Assembly: GCA_030644725.1 (NCBI GenBank) | Contig: CP130629.1 | Span: 2,148,795-2,212,794 of the forward strand | From: Candidatus Electrothrix communis | Lineage (GTDB): Bacteria; Desulfobacterota; Desulfobulbia; Desulfobulbales; Desulfobulbaceae | DNA: 64,000 nt | Reading direction: 5' to 3' | Shown here: piece after piece, positions 36,696 through 62,137 of the stretch | Numbering within the stretch: position 1 is the stretch's first letter | How the letters are laid out: every line of letters starts with the position of its first letter | Position numbers and translations under genes: made by a program | Notes under the pieces: generated by a model | The model's input: the letters and a program-made list of their open reading frames with translations, nothing else | Databases searched by the model: none | What the model was told of the DNA's origin: nothing

Positions 36696-36755
36696 TGATA
36701 TATATGGTGCGCCAAGCAGGATTCGAACCTGCGACCTACGGCTTAGAAGGCCGTT
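36688..36755 (-). repeat. attL: left end of the genomic island (tRNA-Arg 3' half copy)
   Basis: A 68-bp direct repeat of 56041-56108 with a single mismatch (36709 G versus 56062 A). It covers the tRNA-Arg sequence from the anticodon stem to the CCA end plus the start of the terminator. This half still has C72, which pairs properly with G1, so it is likely the original chromosomal 3' half displaced by integration. Confidence 0.92.
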
Positions 36756-36865
36756 TCACCCTCTTTCCCTCCTTTTACCGATTTCTACATAAACATACAT
36801 AACAAAAGGAAATTTAGCAATCCCTCTTTCCCTTGACTTACTCACAAATACTGTTAAATTGATTC

Positions 36866-54134: not shown

Positions 54135-55310
54135 ATGCCTGAAGCCTTTATTACTCCGCATGTGCTCAGTTGGGCAAGAAAACGGGCGCAGTTCAGCACT
54201 GATGATGCCGCGCAAAGGGTAAAGGTGCGTCATGAGCAGTTCCTTGCCTGGGAGGAGGGCAAAAAAAGGCCGACCTTCCGGCAGGCGCAAATCCTTGCCA
54301 ATGCGTTTCATGTGCCGTTCGGGTACTTCTTTCTGCCTGCCCCGCCGAAACAGGAACCGGATATACCCGACCTGCGGACTGTGGGCAGCAGAACCATGCC
54401 CGGTTTCAGCCTTGAATTTCTTGATCTGTACAACGATATTCTGCGGAAACAGGACTGGTTCCGGGAATACCGTATGCAGGAGGGGGCACAACCGCTGCCC
54501 TTTATCGGTAAATTCTCCATGACGGATGATTACCGGGTGGTGGCGGAGGATATACGGCAGGTGCTGTCTGTCGATGAGGCCCGCAGTTCCGCCCGAAATT
54601 GGGAACAGTTCATCACCTGCCTGATTGAACAGGTCGAGAATGCCGGTATTCTTGTTATGCGTAATTCCATTGTCGGCAACAACACCCACCGCCCGCTCTC
54701 CGTTGATGAGTTCCGGGGCTTTGCCCTCAGTGACCCGGTTGCACCGCTTATCTTCATCAACTCCCGCGATGCCAAATCCGCCCAAATCTTCACCCTTGCC
54801 CATGAGCTGGTTCATCTCTGGATCGGACAGAGCGGGGTTTCTAATCCGCTGCTGAACAAAGAGAAAAAAGGCAAACGCGGAAAGAAGGTGGAAACCTTCT
54901 GCAACAGGACGGCTGCGGAGGTGCTGGCACCTGAAGCACAATTTCTGACGGACTGGAACAGCGAGATTCCGGCACAGGACAATATTGCCCTGCTTGCTCA
55001 ACAGTACCGGGTCAGTCAGTTGGTTATTGCCCGGCGTGGATACGATCTGGACGTGTTGCCCTATGATACGTTGCAGGATTTTTATTGGCAGGCTGTCCAA
55101 TATGACCAAAAGAAGAAAAATAAACTATCTGAAAGTCCAGGTGGTCCAAAATCTGACACCATGCGCAAGTTCAGAAACGGCAACCTGTTTTCCCAAGCTG
55201 TGGCAGCTGCGGCCCTTGAAGGAAGACTGCTGTTGCGGGATGCCGGTTCTCTGCTGGGGATCAAACCGGCTGGCCTGAAACAATATGCGGACTTTCTGAC
55301 AGGAAAATAA
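54135..55310 (+). CDS. Xre-ImmA/IrrE family regulator-protease
   Basis: A 391-residue protein. An N-terminal HTH (TDDAAQRVKVRHEQFLAWEEGKKRPTF, about 20-50) is followed by an ImmA/IrrE metallopeptidase domain with FTLAHELVHLWIG; HELVH at 223-227 is the HExxH zinc site. Such proteins act as antitoxins or as repressor-cleaving proteases in mobile elements. It lies one base before a DUF4411 gene, an arrangement described for toxin-antitoxin pairs. Confidence 0.88.
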   Translation: MPEAFITPHVLSWARKRAQFSTDDAAQRVKVRHEQFLAWEEGKKRPTFRQAQILANAFHVPFGYFFLPAPPKQEPDIPDLRTVGSRTMPGFSLEFLDLYNDILRKQDWFREYRMQEGAQPLPFIGKFSMTDDYRVVAEDIRQVLSVDEARSSARNWEQFITCLIEQVENAGILVMRNSIVGNNTHRPLSVDEFRGFALSDPVAPLIFINSRDAKSAQIFTLAHELVHLWIGQSGVSNPLLNKEKKGKRGKKVETFCNRTAAEVLAPEAQFLTDWNSEIPAQDNIALLAQQYRVSQLVIARRGYDLDVLPYDTLQDFYWQAVQYDQKKKNKLSESPGGPKSDTMRKFRNGNLFSQAVAAAALEGRLLLRDAGSLLGIKPAGLKQYADFLTGK

Positions 55311-55311
55311 T

Positions 55312-55815
55312 ATGGATTACTGTCTGGACAGCAACGTATTTATTCAGGCCAAAAATGCTCACTACCATTTTTCTATCTGCCCCGGTTTCTGGGACTGGCT
55401 TGTCTTTCGGGTCGGGACAGTGGGTTCTATTAATCCTGTTTTTGAAGAGTTACGGAACGGCAACGATGAATTGAAAGATTGGGCTGAAGAGATAAAAGGC
55501 TCTCATTTCTTTGCCGATGTGACGGAACCTGCTGTTCAGGAAATATTCAGCTCAATTGCCAGTTATGCCGTGGAGAATTACAAACCGCATGTAGCCGATG
55601 AATTTCTTTCAGGGGCCGATCCCTGGCTGATAGCCTTTGCCAAAGTCAACAGCTGTATTACGGTAACCCATGAGGCATACAACCCGGTGGCAAAGAGAAA
55701 GATTCTTATCCCCAATATCTGCGAAGTATTTGAAGTCGATTATACAGACTGTTTCACCATGCTGAGAAATCTGAACGTTCGCTTTGTTCTGGAAGAAAGC
55801 CAGAACGGAGAATGA
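55312..55815 (+). CDS. DUF4411 family protein (PIN-like, probable toxin)
   Basis: A 167-residue protein starting MDYCLDSNVFIQAKNAHYHF; the early Asp (LDSN) and the later GADPWLIAFAK and THEAYNP segments are the DUF4411 hallmarks. The family has a PIN-like nuclease fold, with acidic residues that would bind metal. It follows the Xre-ImmA gene directly and probably forms a toxin-antitoxin pair with it. Confidence 0.85.
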   Translation: MDYCLDSNVFIQAKNAHYHFSICPGFWDWLVFRVGTVGSINPVFEELRNGNDELKDWAEEIKGSHFFADVTEPAVQEIFSSIASYAVENYKPHVADEFLSGADPWLIAFAKVNSCITVTHEAYNPVAKRKILIPNICEVFEVDYTDCFTMLRNLNVRFVLEESQNGE

Positions 55816-56048: not shown

Positions 56049-56108
56049 TGATATATATGGTACGCCAAGCAGGATTCGAACCTGCGACCTACGGCTTAGA
56101 AGGCCGTT
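56041..56108 (-). repeat. attR: right end of the genomic island
   Basis: The 68-bp repeat that supplies the present 3' half of the tRNA-Arg gene. It has T72 instead of C72, giving a G-U closing pair, consistent with an island-borne replacement copy. Confidence 0.9.
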
Positions 56109-56134
56109 GCTCTATCCAGCTGAGCTATTGGCGC
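56058..56134 (-). tRNA. tRNA-Arg (anticodon TCT)
   Basis: A 77-nt cloverleaf including an encoded CCA. Acceptor GCGCCAA/TTGGCGT, D arm AGCTCAGCTGGATAGAGC, anticodon arm ACGGC-CTTCTAA-GCCGT (anticodon TCT) and T arm GCAGG-TTCGAAT-CCTGC are all present. The 3' half from the anticodon stem is the att repeat of the island. Confidence 0.96.
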
Positions 56135-56197: not shown

Positions 56198-58552
56198 TCA
56201 ACGTTCATTTCCAGTAGCATTCTCACAAACTCTACATGCCTCGTCCTGCTCCCAAACCGGGCCGTTTGCCGTATCATGGACAATGATGCCTTTTTGCAGG
56301 AGTTCTGTTCGGGCCTTATCCGCTGTTTCCCAGTCCCGACGGAGCCGGGCCTCTTCCCGCTGCTCAATCAGGCGATTGATTTCCGGTGCCAGAATACATT
56401 GCTCCAAACGGAGAAAACCAAAAACCCGGTTCATTTTCCGGAGAAGAGAGAAAATTTCATTTTTCTGCTCTAGATCTACACTACCTGCATAGAGGATAGG
56501 ATTCACCTTTTTGATAAATTCAAACAGGGCCCCGATGGCACCGGAGATGTTCAGATCATCATCCAAGGCGGTCACAAACTGATCCTCTAATTCACCGACT
56601 AAAGAGCCGATGACCGGGTGCGGAAGCCCAGGATGCATACAACCCAGCTTGCGGGTGAACTCGTCAATCCTTTTTAAGGCCTTGCGGATGGCATCAAGTT
56701 TTTTATAGGTGAAATGCATGGATTTCCGATAATGGACCCCAAGCAGCATAAAGCGAATTTCCCGACCATTATACCCCTTATCCATCACCTCCTGGAGTGT
56801 GACGGTATTCCCCGCTTCCAAGGACATTTTTTTGCCGTCTTTGAGCAGCATCCCCGAATGGAGCCAATAATTGGCGAGAGGCTTGCCGGTCAGGGCCTCA
56901 GCGATAGCGATCTCATTTTCATGATGAGGAAAGAGCAGCTCCTGCCCGCCGGTATGAATATCAATGGTCTCGCCCAGGTGGCGGGTGGACATGGCCGTAC
57001 ATTCGATATGCCAGCCCGGTCGAATATTACCCCAGTCTGTCTCGTAAAAGATCCCCTTTTTCAGCTCGCCCAGGGTGGAACGTTTCAGCAGGGTAAAATC
57101 CCTTGGATTGCCCTTTTCATAATTATCCAGATCAACTGTATGGCCCACCTGGATCATGCTCAGATCAACCCCGGAAAGCTGCCCGTATTTGCTGAACTTT
57201 GAAATGTCAAAATAGATAGAGCCGTGTTTTTCATAGGCATAGCCCTTATGAATCAGCTCATGGGCGATTTCGATCATATCGCCGACGTACTCCGAGGCCC
57301 TGGGATAACCAGAAAAATCGTTAATACCGAGAAAGTTTATCGCCTCACGGAACAGGGAGATATGCCGATCAGTAAATTCAGCCAGCGGTTCACCGGCCTT
57401 ATCCGCTCCGATAATGGTATTATCGTCAAGATCAGTGAAATTCATAAAGGATGCCACCTCAAACCCCTTGAACTGAAGGTAGCGGATCATCAGATCAGCC
57501 ACCACCAAGCGGCGGCAATGAGACAGGTTTGGCGACTCAAAGGCAGTTGGCCCACAGGCATAAAAGCTTACTTTTCCAGGATGCAGCGGCTTAAAAGCCT
57601 CTTTTTTTCGGGTAATAGTATTATACAGACAGAGCTGTCGTTCTTTGGTCTCCAGCTTTTCCTTCCGAATAAAAAGCGGGGTACTCAGGTAGCGTTCTCC
57701 CCCGTCCGGAAAAATGGCCACCACATAACTATCCTTCTGCTTCTTGGCCTGCTCCATAGCAGCCACCATAGCAGCCCCGGAACTCATTCCGACAAAGATA
57801 CCTTCTTGCCGGGCCAACAGACGGGCCGTGCGAAAGGCGTCCTCATCCCTGACATTAACAATATCATGAGGCAGGGCCTTGTCGAATATCTCAGGCTTAT
57901 AGGACTCCTTCATATTCTTCAGGCCCTGAATCTTATGCCCGTAATACGGCTCCACCGCAATGACCCGAACCGCCGGATGGTGTTCCCTGAACCAGACCGA
58001 AAGCCCCATGGCCGTGCCCGAAGTTCCCAAGGTGGTGATGATATCCGTGACCCGGCCTTTTGTCTGCTCCCAGATTTCCGGACCAGTGCTTTGATAATGG
58101 GCCTGCCAGTTGGCTGGGTTATTAAACTGATCCGTGAGAAAATAACGATCCGGATATTCACGGGCAATGGCATAGGCCTTCTCAATGGCACCGTCTGTGG
58201 AACGGACCGCCGGGGTGAGGATAATCTCGGCCCCGTAGGCCCGCATAATCTGCCGTCGTTCGACACTGGCGGATTCCGGCATAATGAGCTGACAACGGTA
58301 TCCTTTGGCAGCGCAAACCATAGCCAAGCCGATCCCGGTATTGCCACTGGTGGCCTCAAGAACAATCTTATCTGGAGTCAGTTCTCCACTCTTCTCTCCA
58401 GCCTCGATCAAATTCAAGGCTGGTCTGTCTTTGACCGAACCGCCAGGATTCATGCATTCCAGTTTAGCGTGGATTTCTCCGGCTCCGGAAGGACACATTC
58501 TCTGCAAAGAGACAATAGGGGTATTGCCGATAAGATTAAGAAGATTCATCAA
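56198..58552 (-). CDS. fusion of cysteine synthase and cysteinyl-tRNA synthetase
   Basis: A 784-residue two-enzyme fusion. Residues 1-300 are a PLP-dependent cysteine synthase: NPGGSVKDRPA with the PLP lysine at 41, EATSGNTGIGLAM, TLGTSGTAMG, and the late VGMSSGAAM. Residues about 305-784 are a class I cysteinyl-tRNA synthetase: zinc ligands Cys333 (ACGPT), Cys518 (HIECTAMS), and the DIHTGGQELLFPHHENE block. The HIGH motif is NLSH (342-345) and KMSKS reads KMSLE (575-579), so the ATP-binding signatures are altered. It may channel newly made cysteine to tRNA or be a modified enzyme. It lies beside the tRNA-Arg but outside the island. Confidence 0.9.
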   Translation of the reverse strand: MMNLLNLIGNTPIVSLQRMCPSGAGEIHAKLECMNPGGSVKDRPALNLIEAGEKSGELTPDKIVLEATSGNTGIGLAMVCAAKGYRCQLIMPESASVERRQIMRAYGAEIILTPAVRSTDGAIEKAYAIAREYPDRYFLTDQFNNPANWQAHYQSTGPEIWEQTKGRVTDIITTLGTSGTAMGLSVWFREHHPAVRVIAVEPYYGHKIQGLKNMKESYKPEIFDKALPHDIVNVRDEDAFRTARLLARQEGIFVGMSSGAAMVAAMEQAKKQKDSYVVAIFPDGGERYLSTPLFIRKEKLETKERQLCLYNTITRKKEAFKPLHPGKVSFYACGPTAFESPNLSHCRRLVVADLMIRYLQFKGFEVASFMNFTDLDDNTIIGADKAGEPLAEFTDRHISLFREAINFLGINDFSGYPRASEYVGDMIEIAHELIHKGYAYEKHGSIYFDISKFSKYGQLSGVDLSMIQVGHTVDLDNYEKGNPRDFTLLKRSTLGELKKGIFYETDWGNIRPGWHIECTAMSTRHLGETIDIHTGGQELLFPHHENEIAIAEALTGKPLANYWLHSGMLLKDGKKMSLEAGNTVTLQEVMDKGYNGREIRFMLLGVHYRKSMHFTYKKLDAIRKALKRIDEFTRKLGCMHPGLPHPVIGSLVGELEDQFVTALDDDLNISGAIGALFEFIKKVNPILYAGSVDLEQKNEIFSLLRKMNRVFGFLRLEQCILAPEINRLIEQREEARLRRDWETADKARTELLQKGIIVHDTANGPVWEQDEACRVCENATGNER

Positions 58553-58644: not shown

Positions 58645-60060
58645 TCACTCTGCTGCTCGGGACTTGTCAAGACGGGAAAAAGGCTCCAAATTGCGAGCAA
58701 CAGCGGCCAGCAGTTGATGCCGGGCCTGCTGATAAGAAACCAGGGCCTGCACCAACCCGCCATAGGTGGCTGTCAAGTCCCGCTGGGCCTCATTCAGGCG
58801 GACCAACGAGGCTGAGCCTGCCTCATATTCACTTTTTGCCAGCTTACGGTTTTCTTCCACCAGCTCAACCGTCTCCCGCTGGAGACGAACCTGCTCTCGG
58901 GCTGCAGCCAACCTGGTGATATCCTGCTGAACCTCGGCGGCAATACTGTTACGCAATTCGGCATAGGCATATTTCGCCTCTCTTTTCGCCTGCCGGGCCT
59001 TACGAACAGCGGCATCCACAGCCCCACCGGAATAGAGATTCCAGCTGGCGCTGACCCCGAGCGAGGCAGCAAAATCCTCGCCTGTAGGAACCAAGCCATC
59101 CTGGGTATTACCATCTATCTTCCCGGCAAGCTGCACTATGGGCCAGTCGCCAGCCTTGGCCTGCTCAATACCGAATTCAGCAGCCTTGATTTGCATATCC
59201 AGGGCCGTAAGATCAGGACGTGCCTGCAAGGCCCCTGCAATCAACTTGTCCCCGTCAGTCTGGGCAGTCCATGTATTATCGGCTGAAATATCACAGTCCT
59301 TGTCCAGCTCAGCCAGTTTCACTGTTTCCGGCAGGGCAGAATCAGCAAGCCCCAAGAGGGCAGCCAAGGCGTAGCGGGCAACCTCGTAATCACGTGTACT
59401 GGTCAATAAACTATTTTTGGCCGTATTGAGCTGGACCTTCATGTTCAATACATCGCTTAATGAGCCGCTGCCCACCTCAAGACGACTCTCTGCATCCTGG
59501 AGTTGCTGTTCATAAAACCCTTTATTGGCCGTTGCTATCTCAATAGCGGCCAAGGCCAACTGACCATGAAAAAAGGCATCAGCAACAGCAGAGGCCAAGA
59601 TGCGCTGCGTATTCTTTCTGCTCGCAGCAGAGGATTGCACCCCGTATCGTGCCTGTTCCTGCTGAAACTTGCGGGCATAGCCGTCAAAGAGGAGCCATGA
59701 GGCCTGTAGGCCCAGGGAGCCAGCCGCATAGTTTTGGTCAGCGGACGGATCTGCCATCCTGACAGAATCATAGGTAGTATCAGCGTATCGGCCAAGGCCG
59801 GTTGAGGCGCTGGCATCCACACTGGGTTTATCTGCTGCGGCAGCCTGTTGTAGAGCCGCCTTTGCCTGCTCCAGACGAGCCTGGGCAGCCCCTATATTGG
59901 GATTATCCTGTAAGGCTATCTGTTGCGCGGTTTCTACATCCAACAGCTCAACCTGGGTCAGATCGTAGCGCCCTGTTTTCGCTGTTTCTTTTCCCTGCCC
60001 AGCCTGCCCTGTTGTAGCCAGCAGGAAAAATGCGATAAAGACAATTATACTCTGTTTCAC
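58645..60060 (-). CDS. TolC family outer-membrane efflux protein
   Basis: A 471-residue protein with a signal peptide (MKQSIIVFIAFFLLATTGQA). Two repeated OEP domains follow, with long heptad-rich helices (AQARLEQAKAALQQAAAADK, AAREQVRLQRETVELVEENRKLAKSEYEAGSAS) and beta segments such as ASWNLYSGGAVDAAVRKA, typical of TolC-type channels. It would form the outer-membrane duct for a type I secretion or RND/ABC efflux system. No inner-membrane or adaptor gene is adjacent. Confidence 0.9.
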   Translation of the reverse strand: MKQSIIVFIAFFLLATTGQAGQGKETAKTGRYDLTQVELLDVETAQQIALQDNPNIGAAQARLEQAKAALQQAAAADKPSVDASASTGLGRYADTTYDSVRMADPSADQNYAAGSLGLQASWLLFDGYARKFQQEQARYGVQSSAASRKNTQRILASAVADAFFHGQLALAAIEIATANKGFYEQQLQDAESRLEVGSGSLSDVLNMKVQLNTAKNSLLTSTRDYEVARYALAALLGLADSALPETVKLAELDKDCDISADNTWTAQTDGDKLIAGALQARPDLTALDMQIKAAEFGIEQAKAGDWPIVQLAGKIDGNTQDGLVPTGEDFAASLGVSASWNLYSGGAVDAAVRKARQAKREAKYAYAELRNSIAAEVQQDITRLAAAREQVRLQRETVELVEENRKLAKSEYEAGSASLVRLNEAQRDLTATYGGLVQALVSYQQARHQLLAAVARNLEPFSRLDKSRAAE

Positions 60061-60328
60061 AAGGTATCCTCTATTCTTGGCACTGTATTATTAAGAAAAA
60101 CGGGGACCTATTCTTGACCGGCAAAAATCAACCTCCGAAGGAGAAGCAACGCGATTCATCCTCTGATCATTTTTCTCCTATTGAAACACTGTCATAAATA
60201 TTTTGCAAAATGTTTTATGGCTTGCCAAACAAAAACGGCGATGCTATTGTTTACTTGTGTTATTTCAAAGAGATATTAAGCGCCATTTCAAACCCATACT
60301 TCTTACTCCAGCCCTCATAACCCTTATG

Positions 60329-62137
60329 TTTTTCAGAGTTTTTTTTTCGCTTCTGGATAAAAAATATTTTTCCGACAGGTTTGATAACGGAAGCTCCATC
60401 CAGGTTTTCTTCACCCTCCTCCTGGTATTCCTCATGCTGCCCGCTCTCGTACAGGCAATCCCCTTAACTGTGATTGTTCACGGCGTTGAAGAGGAAGGAC
60501 ATAAAAACATTATGGCCAGTATAAAGATAGCTCTTCAACAAGAAAACCCAAATTTGACCTTACGACATATTCGCAGATTGCACAAGGCCGCGCCTGAACA
60601 GATCGTCAAGGCCTTGGCACCATTTGGGTATTACTCTGTCGAGGTAAAAGACGGTGGGTCCTTAACAAAGGACGACAACGGCTGGCATGCTGTTTATGAG
60701 GTTATCCCTGGTGAACCTACCCTGGTTGAACGGGTAAATATAGAGGTCACAGGGCCAGGGGAGGATGAAGAGGTTTTTCAGAACCTGAAAAAAAAATTCC
60801 CGCTCAAAAAGGGCACGCAACTCAACGATACAGTGTACGAGAAAGGGAAAAAAAACATTCTGTCTGCTGCCCTGCGCAACGGTTATATCAAGGCAGGTTT
60901 CACCACAAACAAGATTCTGGTCCGTCACAAGGAACATCGGGCCGAGATACAGCTCACCCTTGACACCGGCCCCCTCTTTTTTTTCGGAAAGACCATCAGT
61001 GATCAGGACATCATCATGCCTGAGATGCTTGATCGCTACCTCCCTTACAGTTCGGGTGATGTCTACTCCCTCAGCGCTCTGAATCAGCTCCAAACGGATC
61101 TTTATGCCACCGGATATTTCAGCCAAGTCTTTGTGGATCCTCGATATCCCGGGTCTAACAGCAAGGAACAGGCAATTCCTATTGAGATCGAGCTGAAGCC
61201 GGGCAAAAAAAATCGCTATAGCTTCGGGGTTGGGTACGGCACTGATACCGGTGCCCGGGGTAACATCGGTTGGAAAAATCGCATCCTCAATCGACACGGC
61301 CATAAACCTGAATTTAATATTCAGTTGGCGGAAAACGGCAGTCGGTCCAATGCGGGATATGAAATTCCGGTCTTTGATCTCCGCTACGACTCGGTGAACT
61401 TTAATACGCTTTTTTTTGATGAAACCTGGGAAGATACCTGGATTAAACAGCTTTCGATTAGTGGATCCGTCAATCATAACGCTCCCAAGCACCAGTTCGG
61501 AGTCGGCCTGGAGTACCTGCATGAAAATTACACGGTCGGCGCCACCAGCGGTTCGGCAAACCTTCTCATCCCAAGAGGTTACGCAACCCTGATCCTAGCT
61601 AAGGATCGCGTCAAAACAGAACACGGCATACGTCTGAGCGCCAGCCTTAAGGGGGGGGATACTGCTTTTCTCTCCAGCACAAGCTTTCTGCAAGCACAAG
61701 CCAACGGCAAGATCATCCTGACGCCCTGGACAAACTGGCGTCTTCTCGGCAGATTATCAATCGGCGCAATTATGATGGACTCCATTGACGAACTGCCGCC
61801 CTCACTTCGTTTCTATGCAGGCGGCGACCATTCGGTACGCGGATATGGCTATAAAGAATTGGGGCCGGAGGATTCTTCAGGAAAAATCATCGGAGGTCAA
61901 TATCTGACTGAGGCCAGCATTGAAATTGAACGCAAGATTAACGACACCTGGAGCGCAGCTGCCTTCTATGACCTGGGCAATGCCTATGATGATATTGATC
62001 TTGATCTTCAGGTAGGTGCAGGTCTCGGGGTCCGAATGAACCTTCCCTTTGGACAGGTGCGGTTGGATGTGGCCTGCGCTGTCTCGGATGCTGATTACCC
62101 CCTGCGCATTCATCTGACCATAGGCGCAGATCTGTAA
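60329..62137 (+). CDS. tamA: TamA/BamA-type Omp85 outer-membrane protein
   Basis: About 602 residues from the ATG reading MFFRVFFSLLDKKYF; the frame is open to 60203 and the start is not settled. A hydrophobic segment (VFFTLLLVFLMLPALVQA) acts as signal peptide. POTRA-like repeats follow (IPLTVIVHGVEEEGHKNIMA, EPTLVERVNIEVTGPGEDEE, AEIQLTLDTGPLFFFGKTI). The C-terminal beta-barrel ends with the Omp85 VRGYGYKELGPED loop and a final LTIGADL strand. It fits TamA, which with TamB helps insert outer-membrane proteins. TamB is not in the window, though the sequence ends soon after. Confidence 0.85.
   Translation, partial: FFRVFFSLLDKKYFSDRFDNGSSIQVFFTLLLVFLMLPALVQAIPLTVIVHGVEEEGHKNIMASIKIALQQENPNLTLRHIRRLHKAAPEQIVKALAPFGYYSVEVKDGGSLTKDDNGWHAVYEVIPGEPTLVERVNIEVTGPGEDEEVFQNLKKKFPLKKGTQLNDTVYEKGKKNILSAALRNGYIKAGFTTNKILVRHKEHRAEIQLTLDTGPLFFFGKTISDQDIIMPEMLDRYLPYSSGDVYSLSALNQLQTDLYATGYFSQVFVDPRYPGSNSKEQAIPIEIELKPGKKNRYSFGVGYGTDTGARGNIGWKNRILNRHGHKPEFNIQLAENGSRSNAGYEIPVFDLRYDSVNFNTLFFDETWEDTWIKQLSISGSVNHNAPKHQFGVGLEYLHENYTVGATSGSANLLIPRGYATLILAKDRVKTEHGIRLSASLKGGDTAFLSSTSFLQAQANGKIILTPWTNWRLLGRLSIGAIMMDSIDELPPSLRFYAGGDHSVRGYGYKELGPEDSSGKIIGGQYLTEASIEIERKINDTWSAAAFYDLGNAYDDIDLDLQVGAGLGVRMNLPFGQVRLDVACAVSDADYPLRIHLTIGADL

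Follow-up and report, generated by a model that had tools for sequence, protein, structure and literature searches.

GCN2 is a eukaryotic protein kinase that carries a dead domain resembling histidyl-tRNA synthetase (HisRS) and senses tRNA broadly. In the accessible part of a review on paralogues of aminoacyl-tRNA synthetases, the paralogues listed for cysteinyl-tRNA synthetase (CysRS) are CysRS* and MshC, and the HisRS paralogue HisZ is described as the regulatory subunit of HisG (PMC9437257). Here we describe a gene of Candidatus Electrothrix communis (Desulfobacterota) in which a cysteine synthase is fused to a CysRS-like protein. The gene lies on the minus strand of a stretch of 64,000 nucleotides (contig CP130629.1, positions 2,148,795 to 2,212,794), called the window throughout. 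Our reading, which we hold at a probability of about 0.5, is that the protein combines a working cysteine synthase with a non-charging pseudo-CysRS that would bind tRNA(Cys), and that tRNA(Cys) most likely alters the synthase.

By its sequence, the fusion fits the pattern of a pseudo-synthetase regulator, i.e. a non-charging protein derived from an aminoacyl-tRNA synthetase and attached to an enzyme; regulation is the predicted part. Like GCN2, it joins a dead synthetase domain to an enzyme within one chain and is predicted to read tRNA, but GCN2 is a kinase with broad tRNA sensing whereas the fusion is a metabolic enzyme that would read a single tRNA. MshC, an ATP-dependent ligase that is not known to have an anticodon domain, shares with the window's fusion its status as a CysRS paralogue and the zinc-cysteine site; it is unfused, whereas the fusion has the CysS_C anticodon domain. 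HisZ, in the same part of the review, likewise derives from a synthetase, performs no adenylation and is attached to an enzyme of amino-acid biosynthesis (PMC9437257). It belongs to class II, is a protein of its own and mediates histidine inhibition, as opposed to the fused domain, which is of class I, stands in cis and keeps anticodon residues. CysRS* of Desulfobacterales is a CysRS paralogue from the same broad bacterial group, but it is described there as lacking an anticodon domain and charging SelC* (PMC9437257), whereas the fusion has CysS_C and has lost the charging motifs. The SepRS-SepCysS transsulfursome also ties cysteine making to tRNA(Cys), with other enzymes and with chemistry on tRNA-bound phosphoserine; the accessible parts of the two articles concerned do not name CysK or mention the fusion (PMC5424206, PMC8762117). 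No description of the fusion was found in the literature searched, which leaves out most subscription papers.

The open reading frame at 56198-58552 (minus strand, as for all features of the gene below) is uninterrupted and encodes 784 amino acids counted from a TTG. An ATG one codon later, at 58549, is the likelier start and gives a protein of 783 amino acids (56198..58549). Pfam domain residues are given in the TTG numbering, and motif and ligand residues in the ATG numbering. All four Pfam domains lie on one chain (PALP 6-283, tRNA-synt_1e 320-621, DALR_2 658-714, CysS_C 721-762), which bears out the fusion recognized in the original prediction. A chance or assembly artefact is ruled out because full-length homologues with 43-95% identity occur across many genomes.

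These homologues were compared with 36 canonical CysRS, including that of E. coli, in two sets. The first comprises 77 distinct full or near-full fusions gathered by similarity to the window, and is therefore biased to close relatives. The second was evenly drawn from 296 Desulfobacterota genomes requested at a completeness of at least 90%, the window's own included, of which 123 carry the fusion at E<=1e-130; three incomplete or frameshifted sequences (L185, L218, L303) were dropped, leaving 120. Counts below refer to the second set unless stated otherwise.

The cysteine-synthase half (CysK/CysM type, PF00291, 57704..58537) appears intact. It scores 369.5 bits with TIGR01136, the cysKM subfamily model (cut-off 344.15), and stays under the cut-offs of the narrower CysM (367.3 versus 394.2) and CysK (329.2 versus 350.95) models. 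K40 within SVKDR (58430..58432), which we take to be the pyridoxal phosphate (PLP) lysine as in the CysK/CysM family, is Lys in 120/120 fusions. The loop at residues 67-72 (58334..58351), presumably the one that binds the amino acid alpha-carboxylate, reads TSGNTG in 97 and SSGNTG in 23. In the first set, the lysine is found in 76/77 sequences, one row lacking the N-terminus, and the loop in 77/77. An invariant Lys211 gives a lead only towards O-phosphoserine as substrate. A separate, unfused cysteine synthase is also encoded in the window's genome and shares 49% identity with the fused half.

By contrast with canonical CysRS, the CysRS-like catalytic domain (PF01406, 56690..57595) has a decayed ATP site. 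As had been pointed out in the original prediction, NLSH stands in place of HIGH at residues 341-344 (57518..57529) and KMSLE in place of KMSKS at residues 574-578 (56816..56830). These motifs are no fixed signature, and vary across the fused homologues. HxGH occurs in 2/120 fusions, both with RTSKA, and GGxD in three; His37 is kept in 57, His40 in 14 and Lys73 in 49. With regard to a persulfide-synthase role, as described for CysRS, Lys73 thus persists in 49 fusions and Lys269 in three. In the first set, His37 is retained in 10 of the 77 sequences, Lys73 in 8, Lys269 in 1, and Arg168, Trp184 and Gln241 in none. The canonical enzymes keep all scored motif residues except for HIGN in seven and Phe or Tyr at position 432 in three.

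A divergent but functional CysRS, acting as a second charging enzyme, would agree with the score of the window protein against TIGR00435 (396.1 bits, cut-off 340) and with the presence of KMSRS in 27/120 fusions. However, KMSKS is found in 0/120 and Lys269 in 3/120, and of four residues invariant in the canonical set, W184, G201 and Q241 are kept in 0/120 and R168 in 3/120; another CysRS is moreover present. Such an enzyme is thus highly improbable, and loss of charging by the fused domain is, on these residue counts, very probable. The fused half passes a cysteine--tRNA ligase cut-off yet most likely charges nothing, which matters for annotation. Of the two roles envisaged originally, a functional variant is disfavoured and a new role such as sensing is possible.

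Ligation of cysteine to another acceptor had also been proposed. The model of MshC, a paralogue of CysRS, scores 198.6 bits against the fusion, but this is far under the MshC cut-off of 485.1 (the profiles have 411 positions for MshC and 466 for CysRS). A ligase of the MshC type, which would attach cysteine to a small amine, would also need ATP, and MshC is not known to have the anticodon domain whose reading residues are the best-kept part here, so that this role is extremely improbable. Structure alignments do not discriminate, MshC rows ending at residue 714 and the CysRS crystals 8qhp and 1li5 at 717-719.

Both structure models suggest that the CysRS fold is kept. The window protein model has a mean predicted local distance difference test score (pLDDT) of 87.9 and a predicted template modelling score (pTM) of 0.59. 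It matches CysRS 8qhp with Z 51.4 (root-mean-square deviation 1.4, 399 aligned residues), tRNA-bound 1u0b with Z 49.9 (4.8, 441 aligned, residues 305-769) and cysteine synthase 2bht with Z 43.7. The only internal stretch of at least three residues with pLDDT below 50 is the flexible linker joining the halves, residues 294-303 (57641..57670), and the relative placement of the two halves in the model is not reliable. A second model was made for L168, which lacks C28, C209 and E238 in an alignment of 58 of the 62 listed sequences. It has a pLDDT of 89.4 with a confident C-terminal domain, and matches CysRS 1li5 with Z 40.9 over residues 299-711. Separately, at fusion residues 469-499 (window numbering), many positions are invariant in fusions and several are changed from canonical CysRS; this segment is perhaps a new interface.

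The charging of tRNA(Cys) would be left to a separate CysRS. In the window's genome, a single contig of 4.85 Mb, the best PF01406 match is a canonical cysS (G000:C1:159844-161316) with 450.9 bits, against 298.3 for the fusion. This stand-alone gene, for which a search had been recommended, rules out the fusion as the sole CysRS of its lineage. It had been argued that a sole CysRS whose fused homologues shared the altered motifs would simply be the functional enzyme; the canonical copy is present and the fused homologues differ in motifs.

The same holds across the phylum sample, where a CysRS match at E<=1e-60 was found in 290/296 genomes. All of the 123 fusion-bearing genomes have a second CysRS, 117 by score and, on inspection, two whole and four in pieces. 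The 117 were judged by a CysRS match at E<=1e-150, taken as a separate CysRS because it is stronger than the best fusion score observed (6e-135), those listed low being judged without an open frame shown. The second match is whole in G166 and G212, with motifs HIGN and KMAKS, and in pieces or cut in G095, G112, G136 and G191. In a further set of 20 genomes, reached via mostly basal fusions, a separate full or near-full CysRS was found in 15 and pieces in two. Two observations on CysRS genes may be added. In G112 (completeness 100), the separate cysS lies in two adjacent frames (C2:129281-130649; L194, L204), which may reflect a frameshift, a sequencing error or a real split. In genome G009, a CysRS-like frame of 428 amino acids without an anticodon domain (L305:3967-5250, plus strand) has KMSKS intact and, by eye, Asp at the second Cys-ligand position; it is possibly a CysRS* or a ligase.

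The C-terminal part consists of a DALR_2 domain (56411..56581) and the anticodon-binding domain CysS_C (56267..56392). R423, D436, R439 and D451 (E. coli numbering) are each present in 120/120 fusions, R427 in 114 with Lys in the remaining six, and position 432 is always aromatic (W 79, F 32, Y 9). The window protein has all six reading residues as in E. coli: R731 (R423), R735 (R427), W740 (W432), D744 (D436), R747 (R439) and D759 (D451). In the first set, the five charged residues occur in 75/75 fusions extending that far. We assume roles at the anticodon for R439 and D451. As to the others, the accessible part of a study of 1u0b, the E. coli CysRS-tRNA(Cys) complex, reports that Arg427 and Asp436 bind G34, that Trp432 stacks, and that water contacts connect G34 to Asp436 and Arg423 (PMC12684709).

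The preservation of this site stands out from its surroundings. The canonical CysRS have 85 invariant positions, 75 in the catalytic part and six in the anticodon domain. Among the 75, 12 are kept in less than 20% of the fusions and 27 in at least 95%, whereas all six anticodon-domain positions are kept in at least 95% (mean 0.983; Mann-Whitney p 0.004 for catalytic versus anticodon positions, with non-independent positions and sequences). Agreement with the canonical majority averages 0.935 for the six reading residues, against 0.339 for the 43 other anticodon-domain positions ungapped in fusions and 0.587 for the 11 of those whose canonical majority is at least 80%. The anticodon domain therefore drifts around a fixed reading site, and the fused domain very probably binds tRNA(Cys). 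Among the tRNAs of the window's genome is a tRNA-Cys(gca) with U73; tRNAs were read in 20 regions holding 27 tRNAs, out of 44 tRNA matches.

The zinc site is less stable. All four ligands said to be kept in the original prediction are present in the window protein: C332 (E. coli C28; 57554..57556), C517 (C209; 56999-57001), H542 (H234; 56924-56926) and E546 (E238; 56912-56914). In the first set, C28, C209, H234 and E238 are found in 75, 74, 77 and 75 of the 77 sequences, respectively. In the second set, the complete set (CCHE) is found in 55/120 fusions and both Cys ligands in 89/120. The 65 fusions without the full set comprise 34 that differ at E238 only and 31 that lack C28 or C209 (20 lack both), and the five charged anticodon residues (RRDRD) are present in 31/31 of the latter. 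Judging from these sequences, some members of the family appear to have kept tRNA(Cys) recognition longer than the cysteine-binding site itself.

This bears on two explanations in which the amino-acid pocket is the working part. In the first, the domain senses cysteine and not tRNA, the zinc pocket binding cysteine and relaying feedback to the synthase, much as HisZ responds to histidine. The window's protein and its near relatives have an intact zinc set and an intact Thr68, Trp205 pocket, and most fusions have both Cys ligands; but the full set is incomplete in more than half of the family while the anticodon residues stay, for which a pure cysteine sensor would have no need, making this explanation improbable. 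In the second, the protein performs tRNA-dependent chemistry: the PLP half would act on an amino acid held by tRNA(Cys), in the manner of SepCysS, or the dead half would move Cys off Cys-tRNA, in the manner of cyclodipeptide synthases. A user of charged tRNA would indeed need tRNA recognition without ATP activation, and the accessible part of one article indicates that cyclodipeptide synthases lost HIGH likewise (PMC2922099). Nevertheless, the presumed alpha-carboxylate loop, kept in every fusion, fits a free amino-acid substrate, and the ligand losses mean that there are members whose pocket cannot hold the Cys moiety of Cys-tRNA. We regard such chemistry as distinctly improbable.

With the anticodon site kept, activation lost, an intact-looking synthase in cis and a full CysRS elsewhere in the genome, the fused domain is best read as a tRNA(Cys)-reading module, whose simplest use would be to let tRNA charge gate the synthase. 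The C-terminal domain would form no cysteinyl-adenylate, yet bind tRNA(Cys) via the anticodon. When bound to the dead domain, tRNA(Cys) would alter how active the attached synthase is or where it sits, and cysteine would be produced when too little tRNA(Cys) is charged with it; the biosynthetic enzyme would thus carry its own tRNA sensor, acting directly at the protein level. In the window's lineage, where the zinc site is intact, the domain could also distinguish Cys-tRNA(Cys) from the uncharged form. In its logic, such a sensor would resemble GCN2 or HisZ-HisG. We put gating by tRNA at slightly below even odds. The wider proposal, a family of cysteine synthases switched directly by the charge state of tRNA(Cys), without transcription, riboswitch or small-molecule feedback, is still more tentative. 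If true, a single protein would match the supply of an amino acid to the demand of translation by way of the tRNA itself, and a metabolic counterpart of GCN2 would exist in bacteria, in 123 of the 296 sampled genomes of one phylum.

Several observations weigh against this proposal. No sign of communication between the halves was seen in the sequence, and the linker is disordered in the model, whose pTM is 0.59. Ala426, Gly446 and Leu442 are also well kept in fusions, and some retained anticodon-domain residues could be structural. Since KMSRS, the first His of HIGH and both Cys ligands persist in the numbers given above (27, 57 and 89 of 120), weak adenylation in some basal members, or cysteine sensing in many, may occur. 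No separate CysRS was found in three genomes of the 20-genome set (G059, G060 and G076, whose completeness is not given). Finally, a conserved cysteine or tRNA(Cys) gene context was looked for in 79 fusion loci, the window included, and not found.

Instead of gating, the fusion could be a scaffold, with tRNA(Cys) or Cys-tRNA(Cys) held near cysteine synthesis so that free cysteine stays low, the product handed to the canonical CysRS and synthase activity unchanged. That one half makes cysteine and the other recognises tRNA(Cys) is in line with this, as is an independent fusion in Nitrospirota, which suggests a preference for linking cysteine production with CysRS. There, in seven loci (L108, L110-L115), a serine acetyltransferase (CysE, named by eye) lies N-terminal to CysRS. 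Like the window's fusion, it joins a cysteine-pathway enzyme to CysRS, but its CysRS motifs are intact, and the fused frame is the only CysRS match in 6/7 genomes (G370 has two matches in long frames). On the other hand, the canonical CysRS presumably uses the same anticodon face, so that it and the fusion could not share one tRNA, and structural contact is not in evidence. A scaffold is thus unlikely. Channelling of cysteine to tRNA by the fusion itself, as first suggested, is unsupported because the ATP site is decayed family-wide while a separate CysRS is present.

Searching 57 genomes of close relatives, the window's own included, we found the fusion in 51 (table read by eye), in some as contig-cut pieces; G001, G006, G015, G019, G039 and G052 lack it. 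In the relative G014, it reads in two frames meeting near residue 591. Among the best 80 of 591 related stretches, all fusions are in records titled deltaproteobacterial or Desulfobacterota, or in records without a narrower name. A tree was built by a quick method, without bootstrap and with motif columns excluded, from 61 sequences out of the 120 fusions and 20 out of the 36 canonical CysRS. All fusions fall on one side of a branch with a Shimodaira-Hasegawa-like approximate likelihood ratio test (SH-aLRT) support of 100; L172 forms one long branch. KMS[KR]S changes at least six times on this tree and the zinc state at least five times, and the anticodon site therefore persisted while the amino-acid site changed several times. 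When the window's gene is compared with those of three congeners, the ratio of nonsynonymous to synonymous substitution (dN/dS) is 0.04-0.08 in each of three regions, namely the synthase, the dead catalytic domain and the C-terminal part. Purifying selection acts on the dead domain, and a pseudogene is ruled out for the window's gene.

The occurrence of serine acetyltransferase was also determined in the 296 genomes. A match at E<=1e-40 was found in 197, with fusion genomes on both sides; absence cannot be read from this table because several passing matches lie near the threshold. The cysE cut-off is passed in 57/296 genomes, 4 of them with the fusion, versus a fusion in 119 of the 239 genomes without a match above this cut-off. 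Co-occurrence is thus rare (Fisher p 4e-10, without correction for relatedness).

Gene context supports no mechanism. In the 79 loci, where genes were named by eye without a family search, a dciA-like gene adjoins the fusion in about 20, and further upstream a glnA-like gene is found in 15 and a glnD-like gene in 12. No tRNA-Cys was found in the 78 loci other than the window, many of which are short. A tRNA-Arg(tct) lies immediately downstream of the fusion in the window (56058..56134, minus strand) and within about 250 bases after it in 22 of the 78 others, a recurrent neighbour outside the mechanism. Searched for an RNA element beside the gene at gathering scores, the window gave two tRNA-type matches only. 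A weak tRNA match at 36708-36771 (minus strand; 29.6 bits, threshold 29) is not called by ARAGORN. At 54135-55815 (plus strand), an IrrE-like protein (Peptidase_M78, with HTH_3 below cut-off) is followed directly by a DUF4411 protein, and the two look like a toxin-antitoxin pair. The genes adjoining the fusion on its other side encode an outer membrane efflux protein (OEP; 58645-60060, minus strand) and a TamA-like POTRA/Omp85 protein (60203-62137, plus strand).

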